This document shows, one piece after another, positions 38,559 to 53,904 of a stretch of DNA of 64,000 bases. The stretch lies in IMG/VR virus record IMGVR_UViG_3300027974_001778, positions 62,001 to 126,000 of that record. One strand, written 5' to 3'. The translations under genes were made by a program, and so were the position numbers. The DNA is from a virus. Below the pieces are notes generated by a model. It was given only the letters and a program-made list of their open reading frames with translations. It was not told the DNA's origin and did not search any database. Each line of letters begins with the position of its first letter. Position 1 is the first letter of the stretch.

Positions 38559-38588
38559 TTGGTTTTACGATATTTATTCTTATCTTTG
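38559..38588 (+). promoter_or_regulatory. tmRNA promoter: Bacteroidota consensus plus embedded TATTTATT
   Basis: TTG at 38559-38561, exactly 19 nt, TATCTTTG at 38581-38588. A TATTTATT box (38571-38578) lies in the spacer, so the gene may also be read from a late promoter. Confidence 0.7.
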
Positions 38589-38608
38589 TATCAGTTCATT
38601 GAAATTAT

Positions 38609-39022
38609 GGGGGTGTCCAGGTATTGATTGCAGTAGTTAGGGTAACCAGGCACGTAGTCAGAATTCATCTATGACTTAAATCTATGGTGAAGAAAATCAA
38701 ACGGCAAAACTTTTGCTAAAATGGCTGCTTTAGGTTTAACTAGAGAAGCTGTTGTTGTTGGTGCTTAATTAGTACAGAACAACATTCGGGTCGATGTACA
38801 TATAACCTAGGAACAGAAGTACTCAAGGTGTAATACCACCCAAAGATGTATTAGGAGTCTTGTTCAGGGGTCTACTCCAACACAAGTGAACCCGACACAG
38901 TTATTGGTTACGATGTCAAAATAGGAACCATTTATTTGTCAGTTGAGAACTAACTGAATAAACGTGTAGTCTGTTTATGTTAATATTGTAAGACGCGGGT
39001 TCGATTCCCGCCACCTCCACCA
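38609..39022 (+). ncRNA. ssrA: transfer-messenger RNA (tmRNA)
   Basis: Typical one-piece tmRNA. The 5' end GGGGGTGTCCAGGTATTGATT pairs its first 7 nt with CACCTCC near the 3' end; then A-CCA is encoded, preceded by a T-arm GGGTTCGATTCCC. The mRNA-like segment near 38686 begins GGT-GAA-GAA-AAT, as expected from Bacteroidota tags (GE/GEN-type start), but this frame gives GEENQT... and stops at TAG 38731-38733. Shifting frame after the first codons gives a tag ending AKMAALGLTREAVVVGA at TAA 38766-38768. It tags stalled products for Clp proteolysis. A terminator follows directly. Confidence 0.92.
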
Positions 39023-41411: not shown

Positions 41412-42026
41412 ATGAAAATAATCTTTTTAGATAATGATGGTGTGATATGCCTTTCCACTAATTGGGGTGGGCGTTCTAAAAAATGGGCTAAATATCGCTC
41501 AGCAAATCCTGAAACAGTTAAATCAATGAGTGTTGCACCAGTTGACGTACGGTTTGATGATTTTGATACAAAAGCGATTAAGGTCCTGAATGAAATTTTA
41601 GAAGAAACAGGAGCTGAAATTGTTGTATCTTCTGATTGGAGATTTCATGCAAACTTAGAAGAATTAGGTGAATACTACACATCCCAAGGAATCTCAAAGA
41701 AACCTATTGGATTCACAAAAAGATTAGGAGAATGTCATGTACCTGAAAACTTCATATGGTCTCGCCAGTGGGACTCAGAACAGACAAGGTCCTTAGAGAT
41801 ACTTCAATACCTTCGAGACCATCCAGAGGTCACAGAATGGGTTGCAGTAGATGATTTGAATATGGGTATCCCACAGACTCATGAAACTTGGGGGGAAATG
41901 GAGATGGATTGGGGATTAACCAATTTTGTGTTAACACCAAAAAGTAGTGAAGGAATTAAACAATCTGGAATAAAAGAAAAAATTGTCAAATATTTAATTA
42001 ATGACACTACTGAATCAAATAGTTAA
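41412..42026 (+). CDS. HAD-superfamily hydrolase
   Basis: A 204-residue protein with motif I IIFLDNDGVI (DxDGV nucleophile and acid/base Asp, with N between), motif II VVSSDWRFH and motif IV WVAVDDLNM. This arrangement (SSDWR) is typical of HAD proteins linked to nucleic-acid end repair, so a phosphatase acting on nucleic acid ends or nucleotides is plausible. A TATCTTTA element lies at 41400-41407, 4 nt before the ATG. Overlaps a tiny membrane ORF. Confidence 0.7.
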   Translation: MKIIFLDNDGVICLSTNWGGRSKKWAKYRSANPETVKSMSVAPVDVRFDDFDTKAIKVLNEILEETGAEIVVSSDWRFHANLEELGEYYTSQGISKKPIGFTKRLGECHVPENFIWSRQWDSEQTRSLEILQYLRDHPEVTEWVAVDDLNMGIPQTHETWGEMEMDWGLTNFVLTPKSSEGIKQSGIKEKIVKYLINDTTESNS

Positions 42027-42120
42027 TCTTATTATTGGACTTGGGTTAATAGTACTAATTATTATTGTTATTTTTAGTTTGGCTCTTTGGATTGCAAAAA
42101 AATTAAATGAATATGATTGA
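42001..42120 (+). CDS. single-span membrane micro-protein, 39 aa
   Basis: ATG at 42001 opens a 39-codon frame with a hydrophobic span (about residues 7-32: LIIGLGLIVLIIIVIF) followed by KKLNEYD. It overlaps the HAD gene by 26 nt and the next gene by 14 nt, so it is probably coupled. Clean membrane-protein design argues it is real. Function unknown; small phage membrane proteins often regulate lysis or exclusion. Confidence 0.5.
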   Translation: MTLLNQIVNLIIGLGLIVLIIIVIFSLALWIAKKLNEYD

Positions 42121-42301
42121 TATATTAAAAATAATCAAAGAAGAAGGACCTATTAGAAAATTTGATGGAGTAGCACCTGAAGGATTTGTTTTAGTTCATG
42201 AAAATACTTTAGAAGAACTGAAAGATTTTGAAGTTTGGAAAGAGTGGAAACACAATCAAATTTCTATCAAAGAGTTAAACAATAAACACTTTGATAAGTA
42301 A
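42107..42301 (+). CDS. small leader-type protein, 64 aa
   Basis: MNMIDILKIIKE-E, with an alternative start at 42113, has the same helical (I/L)-x-E leader seen in late cargo genes, then a short acidic/basic body (FDGVAPEGFVLVHENTLEELKDFEVWKEWKHN). No late box is seen because it overlaps the upstream gene. Unknown function. Confidence 0.6.
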   Translation: MNMIDILKIIKEEGPIRKFDGVAPEGFVLVHENTLEELKDFEVWKEWKHNQISIKELNNKHFDK

Positions 42302-42325
42302 TAAAAAATTGTTACATTTGTAACA
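42291..42325 (+). promoter_or_regulatory. consensus host-type promoter with 7-bp palindrome
   Basis: TTG 42291-42293, 19 nt, TACATTTG 42313-42320. The perfect inverted repeat TGTTACA-TT-TGTAACA (42310-42325) spans the -7 element, a likely operator. It precedes the non-coding RNA. Confidence 0.75.
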
Positions 42326-42489
42326 CAATTAAAGGCGTTAGGTATATGTGAATTTGAATCGAGGTAGAACTTGACAAGGTAAACCATAAGACCTTAACGT
42401 ATGGTGGTCAAACTATTGTAGTTGCCTGCAGCGACGAACGGAAGTGCACTCTCAGGGGGTACCCCAATAGTCCCTGACCACCTTTTTTT
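42326..42489 (+). ncRNA. undescribed two-domain small RNA
   Basis: From a strong host-type promoter to a T-run there is no protein frame. A 5' domain is closed by CGTTAGGT (42334-42341) and ACCTTAACG (42391-42399). The 3' domain is a long hairpin: GGTGGTCA (42403-42410) with TGACCACC (42475-42482) and ACTATT (42412-42417) with AATAGT (42466-42471), ending in TTTTTTT. The internal loop is GC-richer than the genome. It does not match tmRNA, RNase P, SRP or obvious 6S features. Start is approximate. Confidence 0.6.
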
Positions 42490-42500
42490 ATTTTTAAACC

Positions 42501-42689
42501 ATGAAAAAACAATTATTAAGAAAAAGAGAATCCAGACTTGGAGGAGTTTGTGGAGGATTAGGAGAATATTTCAATATTGACAAAACTGTATTTCGTGCTC
42601 TTTTTTTAGTTGGTATTTTTACCCCTCTTCCCGCAATTTTTACATACCTTTTACTTTGGATTATAATTCCAAAAGAATCAAAATATTAA
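42501..42689 (+). CDS. PspC-domain membrane protein, 62 aa
   Basis: Complete minimal PspC domain: LLRKRESRLGGVCGGLGEYFNID, then a hydrophobic span ALFLVGIFTPLPAIFTYLLLWIIIP. In bacteria PspC proteins sense or relay envelope stress. Placed directly after the small-RNA terminator and 1 nt before a HAD gene. May stabilise the host membrane during infection (inference). Confidence 0.85.
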   Translation: MKKQLLRKRESRLGGVCGGLGEYFNIDKTVFRALFLVGIFTPLPAIFTYLLLWIIIPKESKY

Positions 42690-42690
42690 T

Positions 42691-43086
42691 ATGAACAAAG
42701 TAATTAAGAACCCAACGCTATTTGTGGACATTGATGGTACTTTAGTTAAGTATAGAAAGTTTAGTGAACTTCAAGAATCAACAATAACACCAATTCAAGA
42801 TGTTATTGATTACGTGAATAGTCATCACGATGCTGGGTCAGTTGTTGTAATTACAACGGCTCGTCCTGAGAGTTACAGACTATTTACTAAACAAGAACTT
42901 GAAAAACTGGATGTTAGATATAGCCAATTAATTATGGAAATGGGAAGAGGTACAAGAGTAATCTTGAATGACGTTGACCCTGAAAATCCAGAACTACCGA
43001 GAGCAATTGGTATAAACTTAGAAAGAGATGGAGGATTGAAAGATATTGAAATCCCATCTTACATTAGTCCTTATGAATCAAATTAA
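42691..43086 (+). CDS. HAD-like phosphatase, 131 aa
   Basis: LFVDIDGTLVKYRKF near residue 10 is a complete motif I (DxDGT); VVVITTARPE near 50 is motif II; VILNDVDPENP near 88 supplies motif III/IV acids. A minimal, cap-less HAD phosphatase, like those acting on nucleotides or sugar phosphates. Overlaps the following DUF2061 gene by 14 nt. Confidence 0.75.
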   Translation: MNKVIKNPTLFVDIDGTLVKYRKFSELQESTITPIQDVIDYVNSHHDAGSVVVITTARPESYRLFTKQELEKLDVRYSQLIMEMGRGTRVILNDVDPENPELPRAIGINLERDGGLKDIEIPSYISPYESN

Positions 43087-44781: not shown

Positions 44782-44964
44782 TTATTTTTTTTCTTCTACT
44801 GATGCAGGTGCTTCAGCCTTTACAGAATCTACAGCTACTGCCGCTGAATCTACTTTTACTGAATCTACCGCTACTACAGTTGAGTCAGAGTTAACTTCAG
44901 TTGATTTTCCGTTACCACAAGAGGCCAATGCTACGATTGCAAAAATTGCTAATACTTTTTTCAT
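44782..44964 (-). CDS. small lipoprotein with VDSVK repeats, 60 aa
   Basis: MKKVLAIFAIVALASC is a lipoprotein signal with lipobox LASC. The mature part is a degenerate repeat (DSTVVAVDSVKVDSAAVAVDSVK) like the low-complexity lipoproteins common in Bacteroidota genomes. Would be anchored in the envelope; possibly a spanin-like or exclusion factor. A TATTTATA box lies at 45001-45008, 36 nt upstream of the ATG. Confidence 0.75.
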   Translation of the reverse strand: MKKVLAIFAIVALASCGNGKSTEVNSDSTVVAVDSVKVDSAAVAVDSVKAEAPASVEEKK

Positions 44965-45008: not shown

Positions 45009-45054
45009 TAAGAAGGTTAATGTATTATGTCAACTTTTCAAATATTTTTTTCTG

Positions 45055-45139
45055 CGGAAAGTGAGAGACTCGAACTCTCGCATCATTTGATTGATGTACG
45101 GTTTAGCAAACCGCTGCATTACCACTCTGCCAACTTTCC
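45055..45139 (-). tRNA. tRNA-Ser(GCT)
   Basis: Acceptor GGAAAGT/ACTTTCC; anticodon arm GCGGT-TTGCTAA-ACCGT with anticodon GCT; long variable arm as in class II tRNAs; T-arm GTTCGAGTC. CCA not encoded. Confidence 0.93.
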
Positions 45140-45145
45140 AATATT

Positions 45146-45481
45146 TTACAATAATTGTAAAAGATAATAAGACAATTTATATCCCGCAAATGCCCCTAAG
45201 GCTGATGGTATTGGAAACACAATCATTCGTCCCAAATCTGTTACATATTTGGGACGGTTAACTATCTTACCCATAAAAAAGTAATATGTTAGATAACCTA
45301 ATAATACCGCAATATCCGCTCTTGTTGCAATAAACACAACAATAGTCGCACCAATAAACCCAAAAGTAAAATTATCCCTAACTCCTTCCCAAATTTCTGA
45401 AGTAGTGGCATCTTTATACTCTTTTACAATTTTCTTAAACTTGGCTCTATTGCCAGTTTTCTTTTTAATTTCAGTTTCCAT
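45146..45481 (-). CDS. membrane protein directly after tRNA-Ile, 111 aa
   Basis: Start set at 45481 (METEIKKKTGN), 3 nt after the 3' end of tRNA-Ile; a longer frame would read through the tRNA. About three hydrophobic segments (FGFIGATIVVFIAT, VLLGYLTYYFFMG, IPSALGAFAGYKLSYYLLQ) predict an integral membrane protein. Not recognised. It is likely co-transcribed with the tRNA, whose 3' processing would give the mRNA a 5' end at the start codon. Confidence 0.65.
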   Translation of the reverse strand: METEIKKKTGNRAKFKKIVKEYKDATTSEIWEGVRDNFTFGFIGATIVVFIATRADIAVLLGYLTYYFFMGKIVNRPKYVTDLGRMIVFPIPSALGAFAGYKLSYYLLQLL

Positions 45482-45483
45482 TG

Positions 45484-45557
45484 TTGGAATAGATGGACTC
45501 GAACCATCGACATTCACCGTATCAGGATGACGCTCTAACCAACTGAGCTATATTCCA
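45484..45557 (-). tRNA. tRNA-Ile(GAT)
   Basis: Acceptor TGGAATA/TATTCCA; anticodon arm TCATC-CTGATAC-GGTGA gives GAT; T-arm GATGG-TTCGAGT-CCATC. CCA not encoded. Confidence 0.92.
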
Positions 45558-45569
45558 TTGTTGTTGGTA

Positions 45570-45577
45570 CAAAGATA
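45570..45577 (-). promoter_or_regulatory. TATCTTTG -7 element before tRNA-Ile
   Basis: Minus-strand TATCTTTG, 12 nt before the tRNA-Ile 5' end; the -33 region is T-rich but lacks a clear TTG. Confidence 0.5.
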
Positions 45578-45597
45578 CTAATTTTATTTTATAAAAA

Positions 45598-45630
45598 AAA
45601 TCCCCCTGACTTTTAATCAGAGGGATTCAA
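45598..45630 (-). terminator. intrinsic terminator
   Basis: Minus-strand ATCCCTCTGATT / GTCAGGGGGAT stem followed by TTTTTTT, downstream of the gene 45651-46100. Confidence 0.75.
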
Positions 45631-45650
45631 TATTAAATTTAAAAAATATA

Positions 45651-46100
45651 CTACTTTAAAAATCTTAATTTGTATATTGTTGAATAAATTAATTCTTGAA
45701 CCGTATCTATTTGGTTTTGAATAAACGATTCTTTAACTCCTTTTCTTACTTTTTCAATCATGTAGTCTAATGATTTAAAATAATTAATTACTTGGTCAAC
45801 ACTTTTATAATCCTCAGTTTTTGCTGAGTCATAATTTTTAACAAGGTCGTACTTACCTTGGTAACTTTCGATAATACCGTCCACTAATTTGTCTATACCC
45901 TCATAATATCCTTGTAATGCTTTATGTTCTGAATATGATTTGGTTTGTAAATGAAAAATATGAACTTGAGTTTGAGAATGTAATAGTGTTGATACCATAT
46001 TCTTAAATCCTGAGTTACTTTTAGTTTCAGACTTATTTTCCTGCTCATTCAAATGCATCACTTTGAATAGTTGTTCTTTTGTTAATGTTAATTTATCCAT
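45651..46100 (-). CDS. leader-bearing DUF5856/ferritin-like protein, 149 aa
   Basis: N-terminus MDKLTLTKEQLFKVMHLNE-Q is a leader ending L-x-E at residue 19. Then STLLHSQTQVHIFHLQTKSYSEHKALQGYYEGIDKLVDGIIESYQGKYDL, the signature of the phage family DUF5856, whose His/Glu spacing suggests a ferritin/Dps-like four-helix bundle. Late box 3 nt before the ATG. A packaged Dps-like protein that protects DNA or stores metal is an attractive but unproved idea. Confidence 0.75.
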   Translation of the reverse strand: MDKLTLTKEQLFKVMHLNEQENKSETKSNSGFKNMVSTLLHSQTQVHIFHLQTKSYSEHKALQGYYEGIDKLVDGIIESYQGKYDLVKNYDSAKTEDYKSVDQVINYFKSLDYMIEKVRKGVKESFIQNQIDTVQELIYSTIYKLRFLK

Positions 46101-46103
46101 ACA

Positions 46104-46111
46104 GATAAATA
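46104..46111 (-). promoter_or_regulatory. TATTTATC late box
   Basis: On the minus strand CTATTTATC lies 3 nt before the ATG at 46100. Confidence 0.5.
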
Positions 46112-46135
46112 GTCAACATATTCAAAAAATATTTG

Positions 46136-46207
46136 GGTCAACGGACGGTATCGAACCGTCTTCCCGAGCTCCACAAACTCGTGCTTCACCTTAAAGCTTC
46201 AAAGACC
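46136..46207 (-). tRNA. tRNA-His(GTG), weak acceptor stem
   Basis: Anticodon arm CGAGT-TTGTGGA-GCTCG gives GTG; extra 5' G opposite discriminator C, the tRNA-His identity pair; T-arm GACGG-TTCGATA-CCGTC. The acceptor stem GTCTTTG/CGTTGAC has two T-T mismatches. Confidence 0.8.
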
Positions 46208-46212
46208 ATATG

Positions 46213-46286
46213 TTGCGAGAGGCAGATTTGAACTGCCCACCTCAGGGTTATGAATCCTGCGCTCTCACCAAATGAGCTACCTCGCA
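46213..46286 (-). tRNA. tRNA-Met(CAT), first copy
   Basis: Acceptor TGCGAGG/TCTCGCA; anticodon loop TTCATAA gives CAT. Could be elongator Met or an Ile2-type tRNA with modified C34; the sequence alone does not decide. Confidence 0.88.
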
Positions 46287-46292
46287 GTTTAG

Positions 46293-46364
46293 AGGTTCTA
46301 TTAGGATTCGAACCTAAACTCCAAAATCCGTAGTTTTGTGTGCTATCCGTTACACCATAAAACC
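46293..46364 (-). tRNA. tRNA-Arg(ACG)
   Basis: Acceptor GGTTTTA/TAGAACC; anticodon arm CAAAA-CTACGGA-TTTTG gives ACG; T-arm GGTTCGAATCC. Confidence 0.92.
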
Positions 46365-46446
46365 TTAGTCACGGTCATTGTCCCATTTTACAACAAGCAT
46401 CAAAATAACCCATAATAATAATAACCACATATTTTTTTCCATTTTG

Positions 46447-46517
46447 TTATCCGACCTGGATTCGAACCAGAAATGACAGTACCAAAAACTGTAGTGTTAC
46501 CGTTACACCATCGGACA
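46447..46517 (-). tRNA. tRNA-Gln(TTG)
   Basis: Acceptor TGTCCGA/TCGGATA; anticodon arm ACAGT-TTTTGGT-ACTGT gives TTG. Confidence 0.92.
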
Positions 46518-46522
46518 ATATG

Positions 46523-46596
46523 TGGACCAGATAGGAATCGAACCTATTACCTTCACATTATGAGTGTGCCGCTCTAACCGAATGAGCTACAAGTCC
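46523..46596 (-). tRNA. tRNA-Met(CAT), second copy
   Basis: Acceptor GGACTTG/CTGGTCC; anticodon loop CTCATAA gives CAT, as in elongator Met and Ile2 tRNAs. One of the two CAT genes may decode ATA. Confidence 0.88.
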
Positions 46597-46689
46597 ATGA
46601 AGCTAAACATTGCTTTCAGGGTTGAAATGGCTCACAGATAAATCCGAATCACCACCTACTGATTTTACAGTATCTTAGTTTAACTTTTG

Positions 46690-46771
46690 TGGGAGTAGCT
46701 GGACTCGAACCAACGAACTCGAAAGAGGGAAGATTTACAGTCTTCTGCCATTGCCACTAGGCGATACTCCC
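46690..46771 (-). tRNA. tRNA-Tyr(GTA)
   Basis: Acceptor GGGAGTA/TACTCCC; anticodon arm GAAGA-CTGTAAA-TCTTC gives GTA; long variable arm. Confidence 0.93.
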
Positions 46772-46910
46772 AAAAATCAGGAAAGAGGAAGATGGTTCAG
46801 TGGACATCCTCTTTTACGATTGGCATTACTAATGGTAGTTTAAACTCCGACGATGTCTTATTCCAACCACTACCAGGTATTTACATCATCATTCCCCAAT
46901 CAACCTTTAG
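46772..46910 (-). other. structured spacer between tRNA-Tyr and tRNA-Trp
   Basis: No protein frame. Two potential stem-loops: an imperfect one near 46791-46824 and TGGTAGT (46833-46839) with ACTACCA (46869-46875). Could be a small RNA or a processing spacer. Confidence 0.4.
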
Positions 46911-46983
46911 CACGCACGAAAGGGGTCGAACCTCTGACACATAGTTTTGGAGACTACTGCTCTACCATCTGAGCTACGCACGT
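46911..46983 (-). tRNA. tRNA-Trp(CCA)
   Basis: Acceptor ACGTGCG/CGTGCGT; anticodon arm GTAGT-CTCCAAA-ACTAT gives CCA; discriminator G. Confidence 0.92.
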
Positions 46984-46989
46984 GTTTAC

Positions 46990-47235
46990 TTAATTAATAA
47001 ATTCTTCTGTGTTTATGTTATGTTCGTCTAATATTTCGTATATCTTTCCAAACACTAACTCTAAAGTTTCGTACTTATCAACATCTTTACCTTCTAAAGA
47101 CCACTCTAAAGACTTTTTAGTATTATGGGTAATTTCCCATAATGCCATAGCCATATCAAAAGACTTAACCGCTCTTTTATGAGCAATTACTTCATCTTGG
47201 TCATTTAAATCAAATTCTAATATTCCTTTTGCCAT
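46990..47235 (-). CDS. conserved phage protein, 81 aa
   Basis: MAKGILEFDLNDQDEVIAHKRAVKSFDMAMALWEITHNTKKSLEW follows a pattern (ILEFDLNDxDxxxAHxRxVKSxDMAxALWxIxxNTKK) that I recognise from a small protein widespread in phages, function unknown. Helical and acidic. Placed between tRNA-Cys and tRNA-Trp on the same strand. Confidence 0.8.
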   Translation of the reverse strand: MAKGILEFDLNDQDEVIAHKRAVKSFDMAMALWEITHNTKKSLEWSLEGKDVDKYETLELVFGKIYEILDEHNINTEEFIN

Positions 47236-47249
47236 AATATATATTTTTG

Positions 47250-47321
47250 AGGTCGATACAGGATTCGAACCTGTGTAAATAGTTTTGCAGACTACCGCCT
47301 AATCCACTCGGCCAATCGACC
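47250..47321 (-). tRNA. tRNA-Cys(GCA)
   Basis: Acceptor GGTCGAT/ATCGACC; anticodon arm GTAGT-CTGCAAA-ACTAT gives GCA; discriminator T, as in bacterial tRNA-Cys. Confidence 0.92.
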
Positions 47322-47507
47322 ATTTAACGTTTCTTTAATTTTATATTTTTTACATCTTTTTTTAGGTATCTCAACATAATATGAACCAAATACAGAAATA
47401 AAAAGTCCAACATAGTTTTCTCCTTGTTCACTAACTTCTTGTAAAACGGTTCCTTCATATAAATGAGGAAAAATATCCGCGCTATCTTTTTTTACAACTA
47501 CTTTCAT
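47292..47507 (-). CDS. small protein whose 3' end runs into tRNA-Cys, 71 aa
   Basis: Not recognised. A basic beta-rich protein (LYEGTVLQEVSEQGENYVGLFISVFGSYYVEIPKKRCKKYK), SH3-like in feel. The last 10 residues (NGRLAEWIRR) are read from the 5' half of tRNA-Cys, so processing of the tRNA would remove its own stop codon from the mRNA. Confidence 0.55.
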   Translation of the reverse strand: MKVVVKKDSADIFPHLYEGTVLQEVSEQGENYVGLFISVFGSYYVEIPKKRCKKYKIKETLNGRLAEWIRR

Positions 47508-47519
47508 TTTAATTTATTT

Positions 47520-47738
47520 TTAATGTGTTCCGTTTGTTAATGAAATCCCATGCCTTACTCCTGTAATGAAATCTTCAATTTCTTCTTCGGTCATATTGTT
47601 ATATCTCTTACCGACAGTATGTCCAATCTCATTACCACAATCACTTAAATCTCCTTCGTATATTGTTACATCTGATTTTCCTTTCAAAGATACAGAAATC
47701 CAAGATAAATCACTACTGTTAAATGTTCTTTTTTCCAT
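47520..47738 (-). CDS. hypothetical protein, 72 aa
   Basis: Not recognised. Small acidic alpha/beta protein (NNMTEEEIEDFITGVRHGISLTNGTH). Lies 5 nt after the preceding gene's stop; part of the same minus-strand unit as the primase-like gene and tRNA-Cys. Confidence 0.7.
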   Translation of the reverse strand: MEKRTFNSSDLSWISVSLKGKSDVTIYEGDLSDCGNEIGHTVGKRYNNMTEEEIEDFITGVRHGISLTNGTH

Positions 47739-47743
47739 ATTTT

Positions 47744-48367
47744 TTAATTTAATGAATTTGGGTAATACAATAATGTCGGGTTCTTTTTTTGGATATCAAC
47801 CTCGGGATATCTTTCCTTAAATTTCATCACATTAAAAGGTTGAGTTATAATATGGAACCCACTTCTTGTTTTAATAAAAGTCATTCCTTGTTCTTTTCCC
47901 GCCTCTTTCTGTAACTCGTTTATATATTCTCTCATTTTAATTTGACTTGGAGAATGGTTAAATCCATCAATGGATACATTATCAATATCAATAATCCATC
48001 TTTTCTCTTGAGTCTTTATCTGTCCCACAACCGAGTCAAATAACCCCTTTTGGTTCTGAACTCCATTCTTAATTCTCTCAGCCAAACTTGCCAACATATC
48101 CAAAGACACATCTCTGTGATTTTGTTTCTGAACATGAATGTAAGCTCTTGCCTTGAACATCTCACATAATTGCATCACCTCATCATATCTCCTTTCCAAA
48201 TGGTCAACTGATTCAATGCAATATGTTTTAATAGTTCTAACCGACTGATGGTTATCTCTTTCTCCTTCAGGTTGGTCTTTCTTACGTTTGAAAACATACA
48301 GCATATAGAAGTCACCCTTCTCCTCAAAGTTCAATAATGGTTTTATTATGTCTATATTGTTTATCAT
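47744..48367 (-). CDS. AEP primase-like protein (motif-level suggestion)
   Basis: Start set at 48367 (MINNIDIIKPLL); the longer frame begins inside a tRNA-like element. A 207-residue protein. RWIIDIDN near residue 127 fits the hhhDhD metal site and TRSGFHIITQPF near 167 fits the sxH/GxH motif of archaeo-eukaryotic primase/PrimPol folds. The N-terminal half has YMLYVFKRKKDQPEG and AYIHVQKQNHRDV. Size is well below typical primases. Alternative: a related non-catalytic fold. No helicase is adjacent. Confidence 0.5.
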   Translation of the reverse strand: MINNIDIIKPLLNFEEKGDFYMLYVFKRKKDQPEGERDNHQSVRTIKTYCIESVDHLERRYDEVMQLCEMFKARAYIHVQKQNHRDVSLDMLASLAERIKNGVQNQKGLFDSVVGQIKTQEKRWIIDIDNVSIDGFNHSPSQIKMREYINELQKEAGKEQGMTFIKTRSGFHIITQPFNVMKFKERYPEVDIQKKNPTLLYYPNSLN

Positions 48368-48383
48368 ATCATTTTTTTTTGTT

Positions 48384-48500
48384 GTTAAGGTGGGATTCGA
48401 ACCCACAACGTAGTCTCGTAAAGAGAATCATCACCGTTTCGACTTACCGAGCCCTGTGCTCGTTTACATATCTACTACTTAACTTCCTACCCCACTTCAC
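48384..48500 (-). other. tRNA-like element with canonical T-arm (48392 region)
   Basis: Minus strand has GTGGG-TTCGAAT-CCCAC followed by CTTAACA-A, a perfect T-arm and 3' acceptor strand. Candidate 5' partners (GTTAAG) occur 100-135 nt upstream, too far for a normal tRNA, and the anticodon arm cannot be resolved. Degenerate, split or inserted tRNA. Confidence 0.45.
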
Positions 48501-48559
48501 CAGCTTAACGGACTGGCTGCCATATGGGAGTGGGGGTTTCCCGTTAATTCGGGACTCCG

Positions 48560-48640
48560 CGATGTTGCGGGAATCGAACCCACTCGATGAACTACTTGTG
48601 ATATGCACCAACCATTTGCTCCAATCCTAGTATTAAGGAG
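48560..48640 (-). other. second tRNA-like element (48560 region)
   Basis: Minus strand T-arm GTGGG-TTCGATT-CCCGC is present, but no 5' strand pairs with the following AACATCG and no clear anticodon stem is seen. Probably a decayed tRNA. Confidence 0.35.
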
Positions 48641-48827
48641 TGTTACCTACAAATCACCATCATTCAACCCTTTAACACCAAATTTGACTACTGACTGACT
48701 CCTTTCGAACTTTGAGGGTTTGTATCATTCAATATCAGTAGTCCAAGGCTGTAGGAGCTCATCTTTACACTTAGGCTCTTTGTCTTCTCATGTTGCAACA
48801 TTTACGACCGTAGCGTCACCTTGTTTG
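48641..48827. other. non-coding spacer
   Basis: About 190 bases without a credible protein frame on either strand and with higher GC than genes nearby; no tRNA signature. Possibly precursor RNA upstream of the tRNA-like elements. Confidence 0.4.
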
Positions 48828-48900
48828 TGGTACGAGGTGGGTTCGAACCACCGACAACTTGTTCTTCAGACAAGCACTCTACCAACTGAGTTATCGCACC
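48828..48900 (-). tRNA. tRNA-Phe(GAA)
   Basis: Acceptor GGTGCGA/TCGTACC; anticodon arm CTTGT-CTGAAGA-ACAAG gives GAA; T-arm GGTGG-TTCGAAC-CCACC. Confidence 0.93.
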
Positions 48901-48904
48901 AAGT

Positions 48905-48976
48905 TTAAAGTTAAAGTCGCCCACACTTGTTCGGGGCGGGACCTTTCGGTCACCTTCGACATCCCCTCAACTTTAA
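48905..48976 (-). other. structured RNA element with GNRA hairpin
   Basis: Closing stem TTAAAGT / ACTTTAA surrounds GGGG...CCCC and an inner GACC-GAAA-GGTC hairpin (GNRA loop). It begins at the stop codon of the gene 48973-49188 and ends 5 nt before tRNA-Phe. Confidence 0.45.
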
Positions 48977-49188
48977 TTCACTTCAATATCTTCCAAAGGT
49001 ACATCTTCTCCCTGAGTATGTTTATAAACTGTATTAAAAAACTCTCCTAACAATCTATAGTCCTCAGGAATCATATGACAAAAATCAAATGCAGGAATTG
49101 CACCATGAATTTGACCTTGTACTACCTTATCAAACTTATCATCTGGTTTGTACTCAAACACAGTATGTCCTCTAAAAATATATTTCAT
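48973..49188 (-). CDS. hypothetical protein, 71 aa
   Basis: Not recognised. Mixed protein with aromatic start (MKYIFRGHTVFEY) and acidic end. Its start codon is embedded in the last copy of a 13-bp repeat (CGGAAGTTATG), and a structured element overlaps its stop. Co-directional with tRNA-Phe and tRNA-Val. Confidence 0.65.
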   Translation of the reverse strand: MKYIFRGHTVFEYKPDDKFDKVVQGQIHGAIPAFDFCHMIPEDYRLLGEFFNTVYKHTQGEDVPLEDIEVN

Positions 49189-49189
49189 A

Positions 49190-49290
49190 ACTTCCGATTT
49201 TGTCTTGTTTTTACTTCCGAATTTGGACGGGTTTTACTTCCGACTTTGTCACTGCTCACATTTGAGGAAGTTTACTGCTCAAATTTGAGA
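49190..49290. repeat. short tandem repeats upstream of a small gene
   Basis: ACTTCCGANTTTG occurs at 49190-49202, 49213-49225 and 49236-49248 (exact 23-nt spacing), followed by two copies of ACTGCTCAMATTTGAG, also about 23 nt apart. On the minus strand these precede and enter the start of the 71-aa gene. Confidence 0.75.
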
Positions 49291-49296
49291 TTTATG

Positions 49297-49369
49297 TAGT
49301 CCCTGTAGGAATCGAACCTACGACAACTTGCATGTAAGGCAAGTGCTCTTCCAACTGAGCTAAGAGACT
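49297..49369 (-). tRNA. tRNA-Val(TAC)
   Basis: Acceptor AGTCTCT/AGGGACT; anticodon arm CTTGC-CTTACAT-GCAAG gives TAC. Confidence 0.93.
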
Positions 49370-49374
49370 AAATG

Positions 49375-49448
49375 TATCGCGTACGGGGCTCGAACCCGTA
49401 ATCTTCATCGTGAAAGGATGACGACTTAACCAATTTGTCCAACGCGAC
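49375..49448 (-). tRNA. tRNA-Glu(TTC)
   Basis: Acceptor GTCGCGT/ACGCGAT; anticodon arm TCATC-CTTTCAC-GATGA gives TTC. Confidence 0.92.
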
Positions 49449-49458
49449 ATTTGTTTCA

Positions 49459-49489
49459 CAAAGATACAACCAATATTTCAAAGAGCCAA
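49459..49489 (-). promoter_or_regulatory. host-type promoter of the tRNA-Glu/Val run
   Basis: Minus strand TTG (49489-49487), 20 nt, TATCTTTG (49466-49459), 10 nt before the tRNA-Glu 5' end. Confidence 0.65.
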
Positions 49490-49498
49490 AAACAAAAA

Positions 49499-49528
49499 AC
49501 CCTGAACTTCATTTCTGTAGTTCAGGGT
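49499..49528 (-). terminator. intrinsic terminator
   Basis: ACCCTGAACT / AGTTCAGGGT stem; minus strand continues with a T-rich run. Ends the small unit starting near 49675. Confidence 0.8.
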
Positions 49529-49550
49529 ATATAAAAAATTTGGTTTATTT

Positions 49551-49661
49551 TTAGTTTAAAAAATTATTCAAAATTATATCCGAACTACATGACTGCATAC
49601 GCTCATACCAACAAGTTTCTTGTTGTTGACTAAAGACTGTATGTTTTATTGTAGTTCTCAT
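49551..49661 (-). CDS. 36-aa small protein or small-RNA unit
   Basis: Start set at 49661 (MRTTIKHTVFSQQQETCWYERM), 18 nt after a perfect host-type promoter; a terminator follows 23 nt after the stop. The promoter-frame-terminator arrangement fills about 180 nt, so it encodes either this Cys-containing micro-protein or a small RNA. No family recognised. Confidence 0.5.
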   Translation of the reverse strand: MRTTIKHTVFSQQQETCWYERMQSCSSDIILNNFLN

Positions 49662-49679
49662 TGTTTCTAATATATAGTT

Positions 49680-49709
49680 CAAAGATATGAAAAAATCTTT
49701 GAGTGTCAA
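49680..49709 (-). promoter_or_regulatory. consensus Bacteroidota-type promoter
   Basis: Minus strand TTTG (49710-49707), exactly 19 nt, TATCTTTG (49687-49680). Confidence 0.75.
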
Positions 49710-49722
49710 ATATTTTTCCAAG

Positions 49723-49730
49723 TATTTATA
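49723..49730 (+). promoter_or_regulatory. TATTTATA late box
   Basis: TATTTATA ends 5 nt before the ATG at 49736. Confidence 0.6.
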
Positions 49731-49735
49731 AAAAG

Positions 49736-50155
49736 ATGAAGACATTAAGAGAAATTATTAAAGAAAATTTATTAGTTGAGAAAAGAATAACTCAAGTTAA
49801 CTCATCTTTAGAAGTTTTATTTGTATTTGATGTGAATAGAACCAGTCATGCGTTCGATAGAGATACTAGAGATGATATTGAAGGATATAACATAAGAGCG
49901 ATTGAGAATGATGAAATCAGAGAAATTATCAGTAAGGTAAAAAAAGAAATCTCCGAAAAAATAGTAACAAGAGAAATTGTACCTGAAGAAGATTTTGTCG
50001 TAAAATCTTTAAAGTGGGAATTGGCAATGGCGATAACTCCTGTTCATATGGGAGGAACCTATTGGCAACTAATCATCAAAACAGTATTTAGAGAATCCAA
50101 TCATAACCCTTTTAGAGTTGGTAAAAATCAATTGGTTATTTATTCTGACATCTAA
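49736..50155 (+). CDS. leader-bearing putative cargo protein, 139 aa
   Basis: Start set at 49736 by the late box; a longer frame would contain the box. MKTLREIIKE-N is a short helical leader ending I-x-E at residue 10, very like T4 capsid-targeting peptides. The body (SLEVLFVFDVNRTSHAFDRDT, MAITPVHMGGTYWQLIIKTVFRES) is alpha/beta with DRDTRDD-type acids; no family recognised. The only plus-strand protein gene within the tRNA region. Confidence 0.7.
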   Translation: MKTLREIIKENLLVEKRITQVNSSLEVLFVFDVNRTSHAFDRDTRDDIEGYNIRAIENDEIREIISKVKKEISEKIVTREIVPEEDFVVKSLKWELAMAITPVHMGGTYWQLIIKTVFRESNHNPFRVGKNQLVIYSDI

Positions 50156-50156
50156 T

Positions 50157-50245
50157 AAAAAAGGGTAACACTAGTATCTGAATCGTTCCCGTGTTACCCA
50201 GTTTGTAATTGAGCTTGTGTATCTAAATCGTGCTCCTCAATCACA
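50157..50245 (-). ncRNA. twin-hairpin small RNA
   Basis: Minus strand: host-type promoter, then stem ATTGAG/CTCAAT (50241-50236 with 50213-50208) and stem GGGTAACAC/GTGTTACCC (50199-50191 with 50171-50163) followed by TTTTTT. Both loops display the same 13-nt motif ACGATTYAGATAC. No coding frame. The repeated loop motif suggests an RNA that titrates a protein or pairs with targets. Confidence 0.65.
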
Positions 50246-50248
50246 ATA

Positions 50249-50277
50249 CAAAGATACAAAAATATTTTGGTTTACAA
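50249..50277 (-). promoter_or_regulatory. promoter of the twin-hairpin RNA
   Basis: Minus strand TTG (50277-50275), 18 nt, TATCTTTG (50256-50249). A TATTTATA box lies a further 40 nt upstream at 50299-50306. Confidence 0.6.
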
Positions 50278-50308
50278 AATCTATTGTATTTTTTTTTTAT
50301 AAATATTG

Positions 50309-50389
50309 TACCCCAAGTCGGACTCGAACCGACACGACTTACGTCACAAGTTCCTAAAACTTGAGTGTCTACCATTCCACCATCGGGGT
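50309..50389 (-). tRNA. tRNA-Leu(TAG)
   Basis: Acceptor ACCCCGA/TTGGGGT; anticodon arm CAAGT-TTTAGGA-ACTTG gives TAG; long variable arm. Confidence 0.92.
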
Positions 50390-50393
50390 ATAC

Positions 50394-50487
50394 ATTATCA
50401 TCGCTCCAGCCACATCGAGGAACACGCCGCCCCCGCGTTGTTTAAGTGTATGAATTGCGCCGTATCTCACTGAGTTACGATGATAAT
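50394..50487 (-). other. tRNA-sized RNA with 10-bp closing stem, not a normal tRNA
   Basis: Perfect arms ATTATCATCG / CGATGATAAT enclose 74 nt of GC-rich sequence. ATCATCG-TA-ACTCAGTGAGA resembles a tRNA start, but no canonical T-loop or anticodon arm follows. It sits between two good tRNA genes. Confidence 0.5.
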
Positions 50488-50489
50488 TG

Positions 50490-50563
50490 TGATTCGGAAA
50501 GGATTCGAACCTTTGACCCCAAACTTAGAAGGTTTGTGCTCTATCCAGCTGAGCTACCGAACC
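50490..50563 (-). tRNA. tRNA-Arg(TCT)
   Basis: Acceptor GGTTCGG/CCGAATC; anticodon arm CAAAC-CTTCTAA-GTTTG gives TCT, for the AGA codons this genome favours. Confidence 0.93.
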
Positions 50564-50771
50564 AAATTTCCCCACCTGAAATCCCAGTGAGTAGATATTC
50601 GCAGTTTTTCGTATTGAAAAACCCAACGCGTCTTACCGCTTAAAAAGTCAAACATACTCGGTGGCGTTGTTACGACCATTCTCCGAGACCCCCTCTTAAG
50701 GCCGTGGTAGGAAACAACCATAACATCTTTAAAGAACGTTACCAAACTTGATGAGTACTTCTAACTCATTG
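50564..50771 (-). other. inter-tRNA spacer with hairpins and a doubtful 63-aa frame
   Basis: Hairpins GTTTTTC-gtatt-GAAAAAC (50604-50622) and ATGAGT/ACTCAT (50751-50769). A minus-strand frame 50745-50554 exists, but its end is read from tRNA-Arg and it has no promoter box, so I do not call it a gene. Confidence 0.4.
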
Positions 50772-50853
50772 TATCAGAGGTGGGACTCGAACCCACACGA
50801 GCAAAGCTCAACAGATTTTAAGTCTGTCTTGTATACCATTCCAACACTCTGAC
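50772..50853 (-). tRNA. tRNA-Leu(TAA)
   Basis: Acceptor GTCAGAG/CTCTGAT; anticodon arm ACAGA-CTTAAAA-TCTGT gives TAA; long variable arm. Confidence 0.92.
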
Positions 50854-50862
50854 ATTGTTTTA

Positions 50863-50870
50863 CAAAGATA
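50863..50870 (-). promoter_or_regulatory. TATCTTTG -7 element before tRNA-Leu(TAA)
   Basis: Minus-strand TATCTTTG, 9 nt before the tRNA 5' end and after a terminator; no clear TTG at the usual distance. Confidence 0.5.
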
Positions 50871-50894
50871 GTGAATATCTTTAATAAAGTCATA

Positions 50895-50927
50895 AAAAAA
50901 CCCCGAACTTTTTTAGTCGGGGTTTTA
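50895..50927 (-). terminator. intrinsic terminator
   Basis: ACCCCGA / TCGGGGT stem with A/T runs, downstream of the minus-strand gene 50944-51663. Confidence 0.75.
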
Positions 50928-50943
50928 ATTATAATAATTATTA

Positions 50944-51663
50944 TTAATCATTAAAACTTTCCTCGTAATAAGTATCGCTTGCGTTATCTTCTATATTTTC
51001 TGTATGAACCAATTCGATTGTCATATCATGAAAATTGAATATAAATTGTCCATCAGAACCTTCATTAATTTCCCAACCACTATAGTTATCACTAAGCTCT
51101 CTGTAACACCAATCTTCAATTGCAGCTGGAACTCCATCACCTGTTTCATTAAAACTACTTTCAAGATATCCCGAATCACCAGAACCATTATATGTTACTA
51201 TTAAAATCCCATCGTCAGGAATTGTAAGGTCTTCTAATACTCCACTTTCTTCCCATTCTTCAAATAGCTCCTTTCCTTGTTCATCCTCCCAAGTAACTGA
51301 ACTACCTTCTCCTCTAGTATAAAAAGACCACCAACGAGTAAAACTAATTTTTTTAGAATCTACGTCAATGTCGTATTCAAGTCTTTGATAATTCGTATCA
51401 TCATTATCAGGTTCTCTAATTAAATTATTATCATCGCAATATTTCATAATTTTTTGAAGTATTGGAATCAATCCTGATGGAATATCTGCATTGTAGTTAT
51501 TAGTGAAATGGGTTACATAATCCCAATCAACATTGTCATAATCAAATTCCTCTTGATTATCCATATCAATTTCAATGTTGCCGTCTTGCATTCCCATTGA
51601 ACCTAAGTAATTGGATATTCTTCTTAAATATTGTTTTTCTTCTGGTGTTAAAATTCCTTTCAT
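50944..51663 (-). CDS. acidic late protein, 239 aa
   Basis: Not recognised. Very Asp/Glu/Asn-rich with a folded beta-containing centre (ISFTRWWSFYTRGEGSSVTWEDE, DGILIVTYNGSGDSGYLESSF). Acidity suggests a DNA mimic or a regulator of a basic protein. Late box 3 nt before the ATG; terminator after the stop. Confidence 0.65.
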   Translation of the reverse strand: MKGILTPEEKQYLRRISNYLGSMGMQDGNIEIDMDNQEEFDYDNVDWDYVTHFTNNYNADIPSGLIPILQKIMKYCDDNNLIREPDNDDTNYQRLEYDIDVDSKKISFTRWWSFYTRGEGSSVTWEDEQGKELFEEWEESGVLEDLTIPDDGILIVTYNGSGDSGYLESSFNETGDGVPAAIEDWCYRELSDNYSGWEINEGSDGQFIFNFHDMTIELVHTENIEDNASDTYYEESFND

Positions 51664-51666
51664 ACT

Positions 51667-51674
51667 TATAAATA
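51667..51674 (-). promoter_or_regulatory. TATTTATA late box
   Basis: On the minus strand ATATTTATA lies 3 nt before the ATG at 51663. Confidence 0.6.
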
Positions 51675-52028
51675 TCAGTCGTTGAACTCTAGTTTAATTG
51701 TTTTTAACATCCATTGAGGACGTTGATTTGTTGATACGTTATTTATCCATTCTTTGGCAGATGGAATGTAGTTATTACAATCTTCTTTAACATGTTGTTC
51801 TCCAACATATCTGGTGTAGACTGTAGTCCCGTCGCTATTCTTAAATTCGGCCCCAAATCTTTTTTCCATTTCAAAAATACCCTCACTATGATGTCTAAAC
51901 ATTCTATGAAGTGAATCTCCAAACCATCCTTTAGTCTCATCTAACCATTCATGTAGATGAATATAGTCTTCAGGTTTTCCACCAAATTTTTTGGCGGATG
52001 ATTTTGCATGTAAGTTAGGGTGTGCCAT
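51675..52028 (-). CDS. DUF6915-like protein, 117 aa
   Basis: DYIHLHEWLDETKGWFGDSLHRMFRHHSEGIFEMEKRFG and YVGEQHVKEDCNNYIPSAKEWINN match a small family I know as DUF6915 (HLHxWLDxTK...RHHxxGIFxxExxFG...EQHVxED...IPxxxxW). The His-rich pattern suggests metal binding; function unknown. Overlaps the upstream sulfotransferase-like gene by 14 nt. Confidence 0.65.
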   Translation of the reverse strand: MAHPNLHAKSSAKKFGGKPEDYIHLHEWLDETKGWFGDSLHRMFRHHSEGIFEMEKRFGAEFKNSDGTTVYTRYVGEQHVKEDCNNYIPSAKEWINNVSTNQRPQWMLKTIKLEFND

Positions 52029-52593
52029 TTTTCCAAGAGTCTTTATTGTAGTTAAAATATACGAAATCTTCTTCTAAATAAGAATAAACATAATCAGCCA
52101 AATCTTGGTCATAATATTCTTTATAATCATATCCTGATGAATAACCGTTGTTTAAAATGTTATCATACACAATATCAAAAAGTTCATGTGAATCATCCAT
52201 AAAAAATGGAAGTTTTAATATGTCTGAGTATAAATTCTCAACTCTAATTAATAAATCAGGAGTTTTGGTAATCCTTTTTTTTAAAAAAAATTCATAATCC
52301 AAAGTTTTGCCAGGAAATTTTATTTCTTCATGCAATTTTTGTCTAATCCAACTATTAAAGTCATTAGGAATTAAATTAGAGTGTATACAAAAAAGATGAT
52401 ATATTGAAATCATTCTGATATATGGATTTCTTGTATTTAAAACAAAAAAATATTCTTCTTTACCTTTTGGAATTTGCAAACCATGTAGTCCAATAACGTC
52501 AAATTCAAAGTATGTTTGAATAGGCATGCATGACCTTGCTGCCGTTCTAATAGGTGTTGCCCACAATACTTTATATTTGTCAGAATAATTCAT
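52015..52593 (-). CDS. second sulfotransferase-like protein, 192 aa
   Basis: TPIRTAARSCM near residue 12 occupies the phosphosulfate-loop position (P-x-x-x-A-x-x-S), and LNTRNPYIRMISIYHLF near 52 is the RxPxxRxxSxY motif of the family, here RNPYIRMISIY. The C-terminus EEDFVYFNYNKDSW is like the plus-strand sulfotransferase's EEDFKFFNYE. Substrate unknown. Coupled to both neighbours. Confidence 0.6.
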   Translation of the reverse strand: MNYSDKYKVLWATPIRTAARSCMPIQTYFEFDVIGLHGLQIPKGKEEYFFVLNTRNPYIRMISIYHLFCIHSNLIPNDFNSWIRQKLHEEIKFPGKTLDYEFFLKKRITKTPDLLIRVENLYSDILKLPFFMDDSHELFDIVYDNILNNGYSSGYDYKEYYDQDLADYVYSYLEEDFVYFNYNKDSWKNGTP

Positions 52594-52820
52594 TATAAAA
52601 TCTTTTCTTGTCTTCTTCTTGCCATTTCAGCGTCTTTGTACCATCTAATCCAAGTTAAAGACACATCAATTGGTGCTAACACCCAAGCCATAACCATAAC
52701 CATAATAGTATCTAATTCAGGAGACCCACCTGTTGGGTCATCACTATACCTTTTACTAAGGTTTTTAAATAACTGATAGAAACAATATATTACACATACA
52801 AGGTAATATCCAATAAACAT
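52593..52820 (-). CDS. small membrane protein, 75 aa
   Basis: Start set at 52820 (MFIGYYLV): a TATTTATG box ends 3 nt upstream, the same geometry as at 39841. Earlier in-frame starts lie in the box or in tRNA-Thr. Two spans (FIGYYLVCVIYCFYQLF and IMVMVMAWVLAPIDVSLTW) flank a polar loop. Not recognised; possibly a holin-like or envelope protein. Confidence 0.6.
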   Translation of the reverse strand: MFIGYYLVCVIYCFYQLFKNLSKRYSDDPTGGSPELDTIMVMVMAWVLAPIDVSLTWIRWYKDAEMARRRQEKIL

Positions 52821-52823
52821 ACT

Positions 52824-52831
52824 CATAAATA
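52824..52831 (-). promoter_or_regulatory. TATTTATG late box
   Basis: On the minus strand TATTTATG lies 3 nt before the ATG at 52820. Confidence 0.5.
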
Positions 52832-52841
52832 AAAATTTTTG

Positions 52842-52914
52842 AGCCTCCTGTCGGACTCGAACCAACGACCACTTGTTTACAAAACAAGAGCTCTACCAAC
52901 TGAGCTAAGGAGGC
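52842..52914 (-). tRNA. tRNA-Thr(TGT)
   Basis: Acceptor GCCTCCT/AGGAGGC; anticodon arm CTTGT-TTTGTAA-ACAAG gives TGT. Confidence 0.93.
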
Positions 52915-52920
52915 TTATGG

Positions 52921-52992
52921 AGCAGATGAGAGGAATCGAACCTCCGTCTCCTACTTGGAAGGAAGGAGTAATGACCATTATACGACATCTGC
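52921..52992 (-). tRNA. tRNA-Gly(TCC)
   Basis: Acceptor GCAGATG/CATCTGC; anticodon loop CTTCCAA gives TCC; anticodon stem has one T-T mismatch. The following bases read CCA, so the tail may be encoded. Confidence 0.88.
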
Positions 52993-53048
52993 GTGGAGTG
53001 CAGTGGGAGGTACCTTCCCTGTGGTTACTACACATTTTATCCACTTTG

Positions 53049-53121
53049 CGGTCCCGACGGGATTCGAACCCGTATCTCGCACCGTGACAGGGTGGAATTG
53101 TAACCATTCAACCACGGAACC
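53049..53121 (-). tRNA. tRNA-Asp(GTC)
   Basis: Acceptor GGTTCCG/CGGGACC; anticodon loop CTGTCAC gives GTC; discriminator G as in bacterial tRNA-Asp. Confidence 0.92.
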
Positions 53122-53149
53122 GTGTATGGGGAGTTTCACCCCAAACTTT

Positions 53150-53638
53150 TTACTCAACAAAGATATGATTATATTCCAATATTCTTCGTTTTAATTTATT
53201 AACATATTGTGGGTCCTCGGCATAAACTTTACCGAGTAATGCAAAATATTGTTTTTTTGTCATATCATTACGTGATTTTAACATGTGGTCTTGCCACAAT
53301 GAGTAATCATACACGCTATACCCCCAATCTTCGTATTTTGAGTAACCACTTTGGGTTTCCCCAATCTTTGCGGATTCTCTTTTACTTGGAACTTTCATTC
53401 CAAAAAGATTATTAGCTGATTTGAACAACTTTGATGTAAACTCTCCTGATTCTAATATAGCTTGTGCAAACACAATATCAGGAAATTTTATACCATACTT
53501 AATTATCTGCTCATACAAACTTTCTTTTGAGATACTCTCTTGAGTATTTGATTCAATCTGTACTTGCTTCTCTTGTGCTTTGGTTGCCATTGTTCCTAAC
53601 AATAACATCCCAGTCAATAAGAATGTTTTTAACTTCAT
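53150..53638 (-). CDS. secreted glucosaminidase-type lysozyme (GH73-like)
   Basis: A 162-residue protein with a signal peptide (MKLKTFLLTGMLLLGTMATKAQ) and a mannosyl-glycoprotein endo-beta-N-acetylglucosaminidase domain: FPDIVFAQAILESGEFTSKLFKSANNLFGMK (catalytic Glu in ILESG), then YSVYDYSLWQDHML. It would cleave peptidoglycan glycan strands in the periplasm. Exported by the host Sec system, unlike the leader-bearing M15 lysin. Likely for lysis or late wall modification. Confidence 0.85.
   Translation of the reverse strand: MKLKTFLLTGMLLLGTMATKAQEKQVQIESNTQESISKESLYEQIIKYGIKFPDIVFAQAILESGEFTSKLFKSANNLFGMKVPSKRESAKIGETQSGYSKYEDWGYSVYDYSLWQDHMLKSRNDMTKKQYFALLGKVYAEDPQYVNKLKRRILEYNHIFVE
53158..53165 (-). 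promoter_or_regulatory. TATCTTTG -7 element before tRNA-Asp
   Basis: Minus-strand TATCTTTG overlapping the 3' end of the glucosaminidase gene, 36 nt before the tRNA-Asp 5' end; -33 element weak. Confidence 0.4.
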
Positions 53639-53718
53639 TTCTTTCTTTTTGTCTGTTTATGCTTCAGGATTGCTCCATCCACGATACTACAACATTGGAA
53701 TTTTTCCACCTACCGCAG

Positions 53719-53790
53719 AGGCCCCTGTAGGATTTGAACCTACGACCAGTTGATTAACAGTCAACTGCTCTACCACTGAGCTAAAGGGCC
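53719..53790 (-). tRNA. tRNA-Asn(GTT)
   Basis: Acceptor GGCCCTT/AGGGGCC; anticodon arm GTTGA-CTGTTAA-TCAAC gives GTT. Confidence 0.93.
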
Positions 53791-53797
53791 TTATAAT

Positions 53798-53805
53798 AAT
53801 AAATA
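53798..53805 (-). promoter_or_regulatory. TATTTATT box before tRNA-Asn
   Basis: On the minus strand TATTTATT lies 7 nt before the tRNA-Asn 5' end, so this tRNA may be read late. Confidence 0.4.
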
Positions 53806-53830
53806 AAATTTCCAATAAAGGAAACTTTTG

Positions 53831-53904
53831 TCGGGATGGCTGGATTCGAACCAACGGCCTCCACGTCCCAAACGTGGCGCGATACCTGACTACGCTACAT
53901 CCCG
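53831..53904 (-). tRNA. tRNA-Pro(TGG)
   Basis: Acceptor CGGGATG/CATCCCG; anticodon arm CCACG-TTTGGGA-CGTGG gives TGG. Confidence 0.93.

Follow-up and report, generated by a model that had tools for sequence, protein, structure and literature searches.

What is encoded in the stretch of about 165 nt that lies without a gene between a host-type promoter and a run of U residues in this phage, and in what form would its product act? The window analysed here is 64 kb of the 127-kb IMG/VR virus record IMGVR_UViG_3300027974_001778. The window phage encodes T4-type major head and portal proteins, and its nearest capsids include those of the Flavobacterium phages 'immuto', with 42% identity across about half of the protein; this likeness, together with the promoter matches described below, makes a Bacteroidota host likely. 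The stretch and its surroundings contain the following features:

38609-39022, + strand: tmRNA gene (38559-39022 with its promoter), preceded by a perfect TTG-N19-TATCTTTG promoter
41412-42026, + strand: HAD gene of the 'Swiss Army Knife RNA repair' family (HAD_SAK_2)
42107..42301, + strand: c0, a 64-aa ORF family of unknown function, the constant upstream neighbour
42291..42320, + strand: host-type (Bacteroidota) promoter TTG-N19-TACATTTG, an exact pattern match
42475..42489, + strand: predicted intrinsic terminator, the 3' strand of helix P1 (UGACCACC) followed by U7
42501-42689, + strand: gene for a PspC-domain protein, optional among relatives between the RNA and the HAD gene
42691-43086, + strand: HAD gene, weakly similar to polynucleotide-kinase phosphatases
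45054-53904, - strand: island of 21 tRNA genes with small ORFs interspersed

A phage-encoded tmRNA is also found in the related loci L103 and L111, and comparable tRNA islands adjoin the RNA in related phages. The two HAD-type phosphatase genes flanking the RNA (41412-42026 and 42691-43086) may constitute an RNA-repair module. Further along, 44782-44964 on the minus strand encodes a short lipoprotein-like protein that begins MKKVLAIFAIVALASCG and ends in a Val/Ser/Asp-rich tail; similar proteins occur in relatives (cluster c9), and Pfam contains no match to it.

The promoter consists of TTG at 42291-42293, a spacer of 19 nt and TACATTTG at 42313-42320, forming a perfect TTG-N19-TAnnTTTG. Because the window contains seven such matches, where shuffled sequence would give 2.5, the match by itself is only modest evidence. 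A 7-bp inverted repeat, TGTTACA/TGTAACA, extends over the -7 element (42310-42316 / 42319-42325), and both features claimed by the first-pass annotation, the perfect host-type promoter and the repeat enclosing its -7 element, are present at 42291-42325. Control by a palindrome does not hold as a general trait, as the inverted repeat is confined to the window's close clade and is absent in L006, L020 and L096. Other relatives carry a different promoter, or have the RNA directly behind a tRNA-Thr gene or after the upstream gene without a promoter; the tRNA-Thr gene ends just upstream in nine loci, and a tRNA-Gly gene lies downstream in three. The U-tract is found in many promoter-bearing relatives and is missing from the L021-like clade, in which the core directly follows the upstream gene with neither its own promoter nor a U-tract. 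The stretch is also free of genes as originally described, with nothing but the disrupted remains of a small ORF, whole in relatives, within 42302-42500. Read from the sequence, the element of about 165 nt spans the host-type promoter to a predicted intrinsic terminator.

Related loci were collected from many large phage contigs through three neighbouring genes. In blastn and nhmmer searches, conservation of the 3' domain reaches well past the close clade, whereas that of the 5' domain does not. A pattern scan returned 61 viral records, 54 of them genuine; the remaining seven (L097, L102, L118, L125, L127, L140 and L146) resemble one coding sequence and were rejected. A covariance model (R1) built from 27 sequences (alignment A1) places one copy apiece in 47 of 47 records scanned whole and recovers four further records missed by the pattern scan (L195-L197 and L233), with E-values of 1e-17 to 1e-23 across members and 1.7e-19 for the window. 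The family comprises about 59 IMG/VR records, the window's own included. In 41 records with the neighbouring genes the model detects no RNA, and 18 pattern matches in bacterial genome contigs, which it scores above E 0.5 or not at all, were taken as chance. Only chance matches, and no member, were returned by blastn against the deposited phages of INPHARED with three family members as queries. Rfam 15 at its gathering score has no match in the window stretch; at a permissive threshold the best match to a 271-nt stretch is a chance snoRNA (E 9.6), and four relatives match nothing in Rfam except tRNA, in agreement with the first-pass annotation, which could match the element to no RNA family. 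A search of open-access papers found no description of this RNA. The family is undescribed in the resources searched and belongs to large T4-like phages of Bacteroidota-type hosts.

The element almost certainly specifies a conserved structured RNA. Its core (42403-42482) consists of an 8-bp helix P1, which is also the terminator stem, a 7-bp helix P2, and a junction from which P3 (4 bp), P4 (3 bp) and P5 (2 bp) emerge:

42403..42410, + strand: P1 5' strand GGUGGUCA, pairing with 42475-42482; 5 of 8 pairs show double changes
42412..42418, + strand: P2 5' strand ACUAUUG, pairing with 42465-42471
42465..42471, + strand: P2 3' strand CAAUAGU; 100% of cells paired, 6 of 7 P2 pairs show double changes
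42421..42435, + strand: P3 hairpin GUUG-C-CUGCAG-CGAC; 7-nt loop with the palindrome CUGCAG at 42426-42431; all four stem pairs covary
42440..42452, + strand: P4 hairpin GGA-A-GUGCAC-UCU; 7-nt loop with the palindrome GUGCAC at 42444-42449
42455..42464, + strand: P5 short hairpin, GG/CC with a variable loop; 2 pairs, 98% of cells paired, little variation

In the alignment of 27 distinct core sequences, 97.8% of the cells are paired, 18 pairs are double-changed against 9.7 after shuffling, and the covariation score is 0.421 against 0.206. Pairing reaches 93% of cells in P1, 100% in P2 and 98% in P3, and falls to 35-38% when the partners are slid by one column. RNAalifold, unaided, recovers the same core fold plus one extra pair in the P3 loop, and in L195, a member found without the pattern, the P4 stem changes from GGA/UCC to GAG/CUC. 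G-U cells far outnumber A-C cells (about 41 vs about 4, counted by eye from the pairing tables), which fits the plus strand as the folded strand. Folded alone, the window sequence is only mildly better than its shuffles (z -2.5), so the case rests on comparison; single-sequence folding does not recover P4. Two groups of A1 columns, perhaps tertiary contacts of the core, vary together outside simple helices: A48 mostly accompanies G62 (columns 48/62), and in columns 20-21/83-84/86 the A-C/G-U type of P2 mostly accompanies C86 and the G-U/A-C type mostly U86.

Upstream of the core, the 5' domain is closed by P0 and contains a second hairpin, P0a:

42336..42340, + strand: P0 5' strand CGUUA, pairing with 42395-42399; closing stem of the 5' domain
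42395..42399, + strand: P0 3' strand UAACG, containing the stop codon of a 30-aa ORF in relatives
42359..42374, + strand: P0a hairpin UCGAG-GUAGAA-CUUGA, with compensatory changes in relatives

In 5'-domain pieces aligned by hand, the CGUUA/UAACG pairing of P0 is kept in 87 of 90 cells over 18 relatives, with an A-U to G-C replacement in L150; L105 has a different, 8-bp pairing at this place. P0a is paired in 83 of 90 cells against 76.7 after shuffling, a value reached by 0 of 1000 shuffles, and its compensatory forms include UUGAG/CUCAA (L004), UUGGG/CCUAA (L150) and UUAAG/CUUAA (L006). The first-pass annotation had proposed two domains, a 5' domain (42334-42399) and a terminator-linked 3' hairpin domain (42403-42482), to be judged by compensatory changes in relatives. 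Such changes are found in both: the 18 double-changed pairs bear out the 3' domain, and the 5' stem is likewise real, with weaker support. The equal rank of the two domains does not stand, as the core is family-wide, whereas one clade lacks the 5' domain.

In most relatives the 5' domain contains an ORF of 29-38 aa that ends with its stop codon in P0, has the consensus ...VELDP...W(E/D)xGD(N/I)IxF and encloses P0a (K/E-VELDP). It is carried by L006, L020, L096, L099, L100, L103, L104, L121, L129, L134, L137, L141, L152, L156 and L195, and one member scanned against Pfam and PHROG gave no match. The element could accordingly be read as a messenger that encodes a 30-aa phage peptide and ends in a structured 3' UTR, or as a dual-function RNA whose main product is the peptide, a reading favoured by this ORF and by L009, which keeps the peptide's C-terminal motif without the RNA. 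However, the window's clade has lost the ORF, its ATG being followed immediately by TGA while P0 and P0a are kept and still covary (L004, L150), and the ORF is absent likewise in L150, L015 and the L021-like clade, where the 3' core is fully structured. The messenger reading is therefore unlikely. Since L015 and the L021-like clade possess the core without the ORF, it is the core that stays constant, with the peptide as an optional addition.

A cis-acting riboswitch, attenuator or leader for the next gene downstream, with P1 as a regulated terminator, is also improbable. The RNA is located upstream of start codons, a U-tract follows P1 in the window, and the conserved junction residues could hold a ligand; yet the RNA is retained while its downstream neighbour varies among PspC, HAD, c12, a DUF2061-like c1, an M23-peptidase-like c4 and tRNA-Gly. 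No HAD gene is seen in 8 of 18 RNA-bearing records (most of these eight or so being fragments of genomes), the whole L021-like clade lacks the U-tract, no alternative antiterminator pairing is seen in the alignment, and a ligand pocket leaves the palindromic loops unexplained. A cis-regulator of the PspC or HAD gene specifically was rejected because the downstream gene changes. On the upstream side, c0, which has no match in Pfam, is found in about 30 of 34 loci examined. The combination of a swapped downstream gene and a nearly constant upstream one favours a trans-acting product.

The most informative feature of the RNA, absent from its earlier description, is the pair of palindromic loops at the tips of P3 and P4. 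Both loops consist of one nucleotide followed by a 6-nt palindrome, a few P3 loops being one nucleotide shorter. In P3 the hexamer is CUGCAG in 27 of 27 aligned sequences and also in the pattern and covariance-model searches that did not require it; a pattern scan with both palindromes left open returned no new member, so no P3 variant is known. In P4 the letters change while self-complementarity is kept: the hexamer is GUCGAC in 10 sequences, GUGCAC in 8, GCUAGC in 8 and GUCGGC in 1, and the loop is self-complementary in 27 of 27, counting U-G, with L134 (GUCGGC) depending on the wobbles. The P4 palindrome contains 24 double-change cells against 7.0 after shuffling and zero when slid by one column, and the top covariation (MI) of the whole alignment falls on its adjacent columns 55/56. 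Since neighbouring bases within one loop are unable to form a pair, these columns would most naturally find their partner in the same loop of another molecule. No second copy of either hexamer, and hence no competing complement within the molecule, is found in 30 transcripts. Pairing between the P3 and P4 loops of one molecule was discarded, as it is possible only in the UGCA class (4 bp) and not in the CUAG and UCGA classes.

Self-pairing of the hexamers yields -7.5 to -8.2 kcal/mol in every class, pairing between P4 classes is at -2.2 or weaker, and CUGCAG pairs poorly with the P4 hexamers (-0.1 to -4.0 kcal/mol). The P4 class changes about 9-10 times on the tree of the upstream c0 protein, several of these changes having weak branch support. 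L021 and L027, a sister pair, share 94% and 90% identity in the flanks but only 68% in the cores, and their P4 classes differ, which points to exchange of the whole allele as one route of class change; the switches could therefore be in part recombination of whole RNA alleles instead of stepwise compensation.

In GOLLD and OLE, palindrome switching at adjacent nucleotides supports symmetric kissing loops (Kretsch et al. 2025, PMC12286853). The same kind of switching here, combined with the lack of a second hexamer copy, suggests that copies of this RNA probably homo-oligomerise through symmetric kissing loops. A conventional regulatory RNA, with the CUGCAG and P4 loops pairing host or phage mRNAs or binding a protein and with palindromy incidental, would suit an invariant CUGCAG with a fixed partner, a hexamer that occurs 13 times in the window, and the unchanging palindrome of P3 would fit a loop that binds protein or RNA just as well. 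Against this, the three P4 hexamers share self-complementarity, which a targeting loop has no reason to keep, and the only GTGCAC of the 64-kb window is the one in this RNA, so that this alternative is very improbable. An element acting as DNA, through a single-stranded DNA fold or through palindromes to which a dimeric protein binds, can be dismissed almost entirely, for although every loop hexamer is also a 6-bp DNA palindrome, the excess of G-U over A-C, the fixed hairpin-loop places of the palindromes, and the promoter ahead of and U-tract behind many members all speak against it.

In the homo-oligomer favoured here, P3 would bind P3 via CUGCAG, a contact that is the same in all phages, and P4 would bind P4 in an allele-specific contact, although a P4 stem of only 3 bp, which single-sequence folding misses, speaks against this. 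The product could be a homodimer held by two contacts, or a chain or ring in which the two contacts alternate. Such a multimer might serve as a stable trans-acting particle or scaffold, and not as a switch for the next gene, and might act within the phage region for RNA and translation take-over that contains the tmRNA, the tRNA islands and the RNA-repair-like HAD phosphatases.

On the sequence evidence, the best reading places the RNA beside GOLLD, ROOL and pRNA in style and within none of these families. Like GOLLD, it is phage-encoded near tRNA islands and has a conserved 3' and a less conserved 5' region; GOLLD also forms symmetric kissing loops with a palindrome that covaries at adjacent nucleotides (PMC12286853), where for the present RNA we infer oligomerisation. 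GOLLD members, however, often exceed 800 nt, against about 165 nt and an 80-nt core here, and Rfam reports no match. ROOL is likewise a phage or prophage RNA near tRNA islands and self-assembles via loop-loop contacts (PMC12286853), but it is large, contains multiple pseudoknots and matches this RNA in neither sequence nor structure. The phi29 pRNA, also small and phage-encoded, forms multimers by means of its hairpin loops (PMC7357161); these are two different, complementary, non-palindromic sequences joined head to tail, whereas here each loop is self-complementary and the two are not complements of each other (-0.1 to -4.0 kcal/mol). The HIV-1 DIS provides a 6-nt palindromic kissing loop whose GUGCAC form equals the window P4 hexamer (PMC7357161), but it belongs to a retroviral genome and shares no ancestry with the present RNA, which has two 7-nt loops per molecule. 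In OLE, a symmetric kissing loop joins the homodimer, and the tetranucleotide within that loop changes from one palindrome to another (PMC12286853), but OLE is a large RNA of Gram-positive extremophile bacteria, and no Rfam match connects it to this family.

A more specific form of the homo-oligomer is possible though doubtful: an RNA polymer or ring with a core of about 80 nt and two orthogonal kissing loops, the universal CUGCAG and an allele-specific one, in which P4 would be a tag of self and non-self. If true, this tag would keep the RNAs of rival phages in one cell from co-assembling, and the arrangement would parallel, in RNA, the incompatibility loops of plasmids. To our knowledge, few RNAs in nature form homo-oligomers on their own; phi29 pRNA aside, the phage cases in print are very large RNAs to which no function has been assigned. 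If its two palindromic loops do kiss, this small RNA, with dozens of homologues and with three natural P4 alleles that amount to ready-made loop-swap variants, would offer an easy system in which to examine the role of RNA assemblies in phages. In conclusion, the family would add to the tRNA/tmRNA regions of large phages a structured RNA that, in most members, contains a nested gene for a 30-aa peptide.
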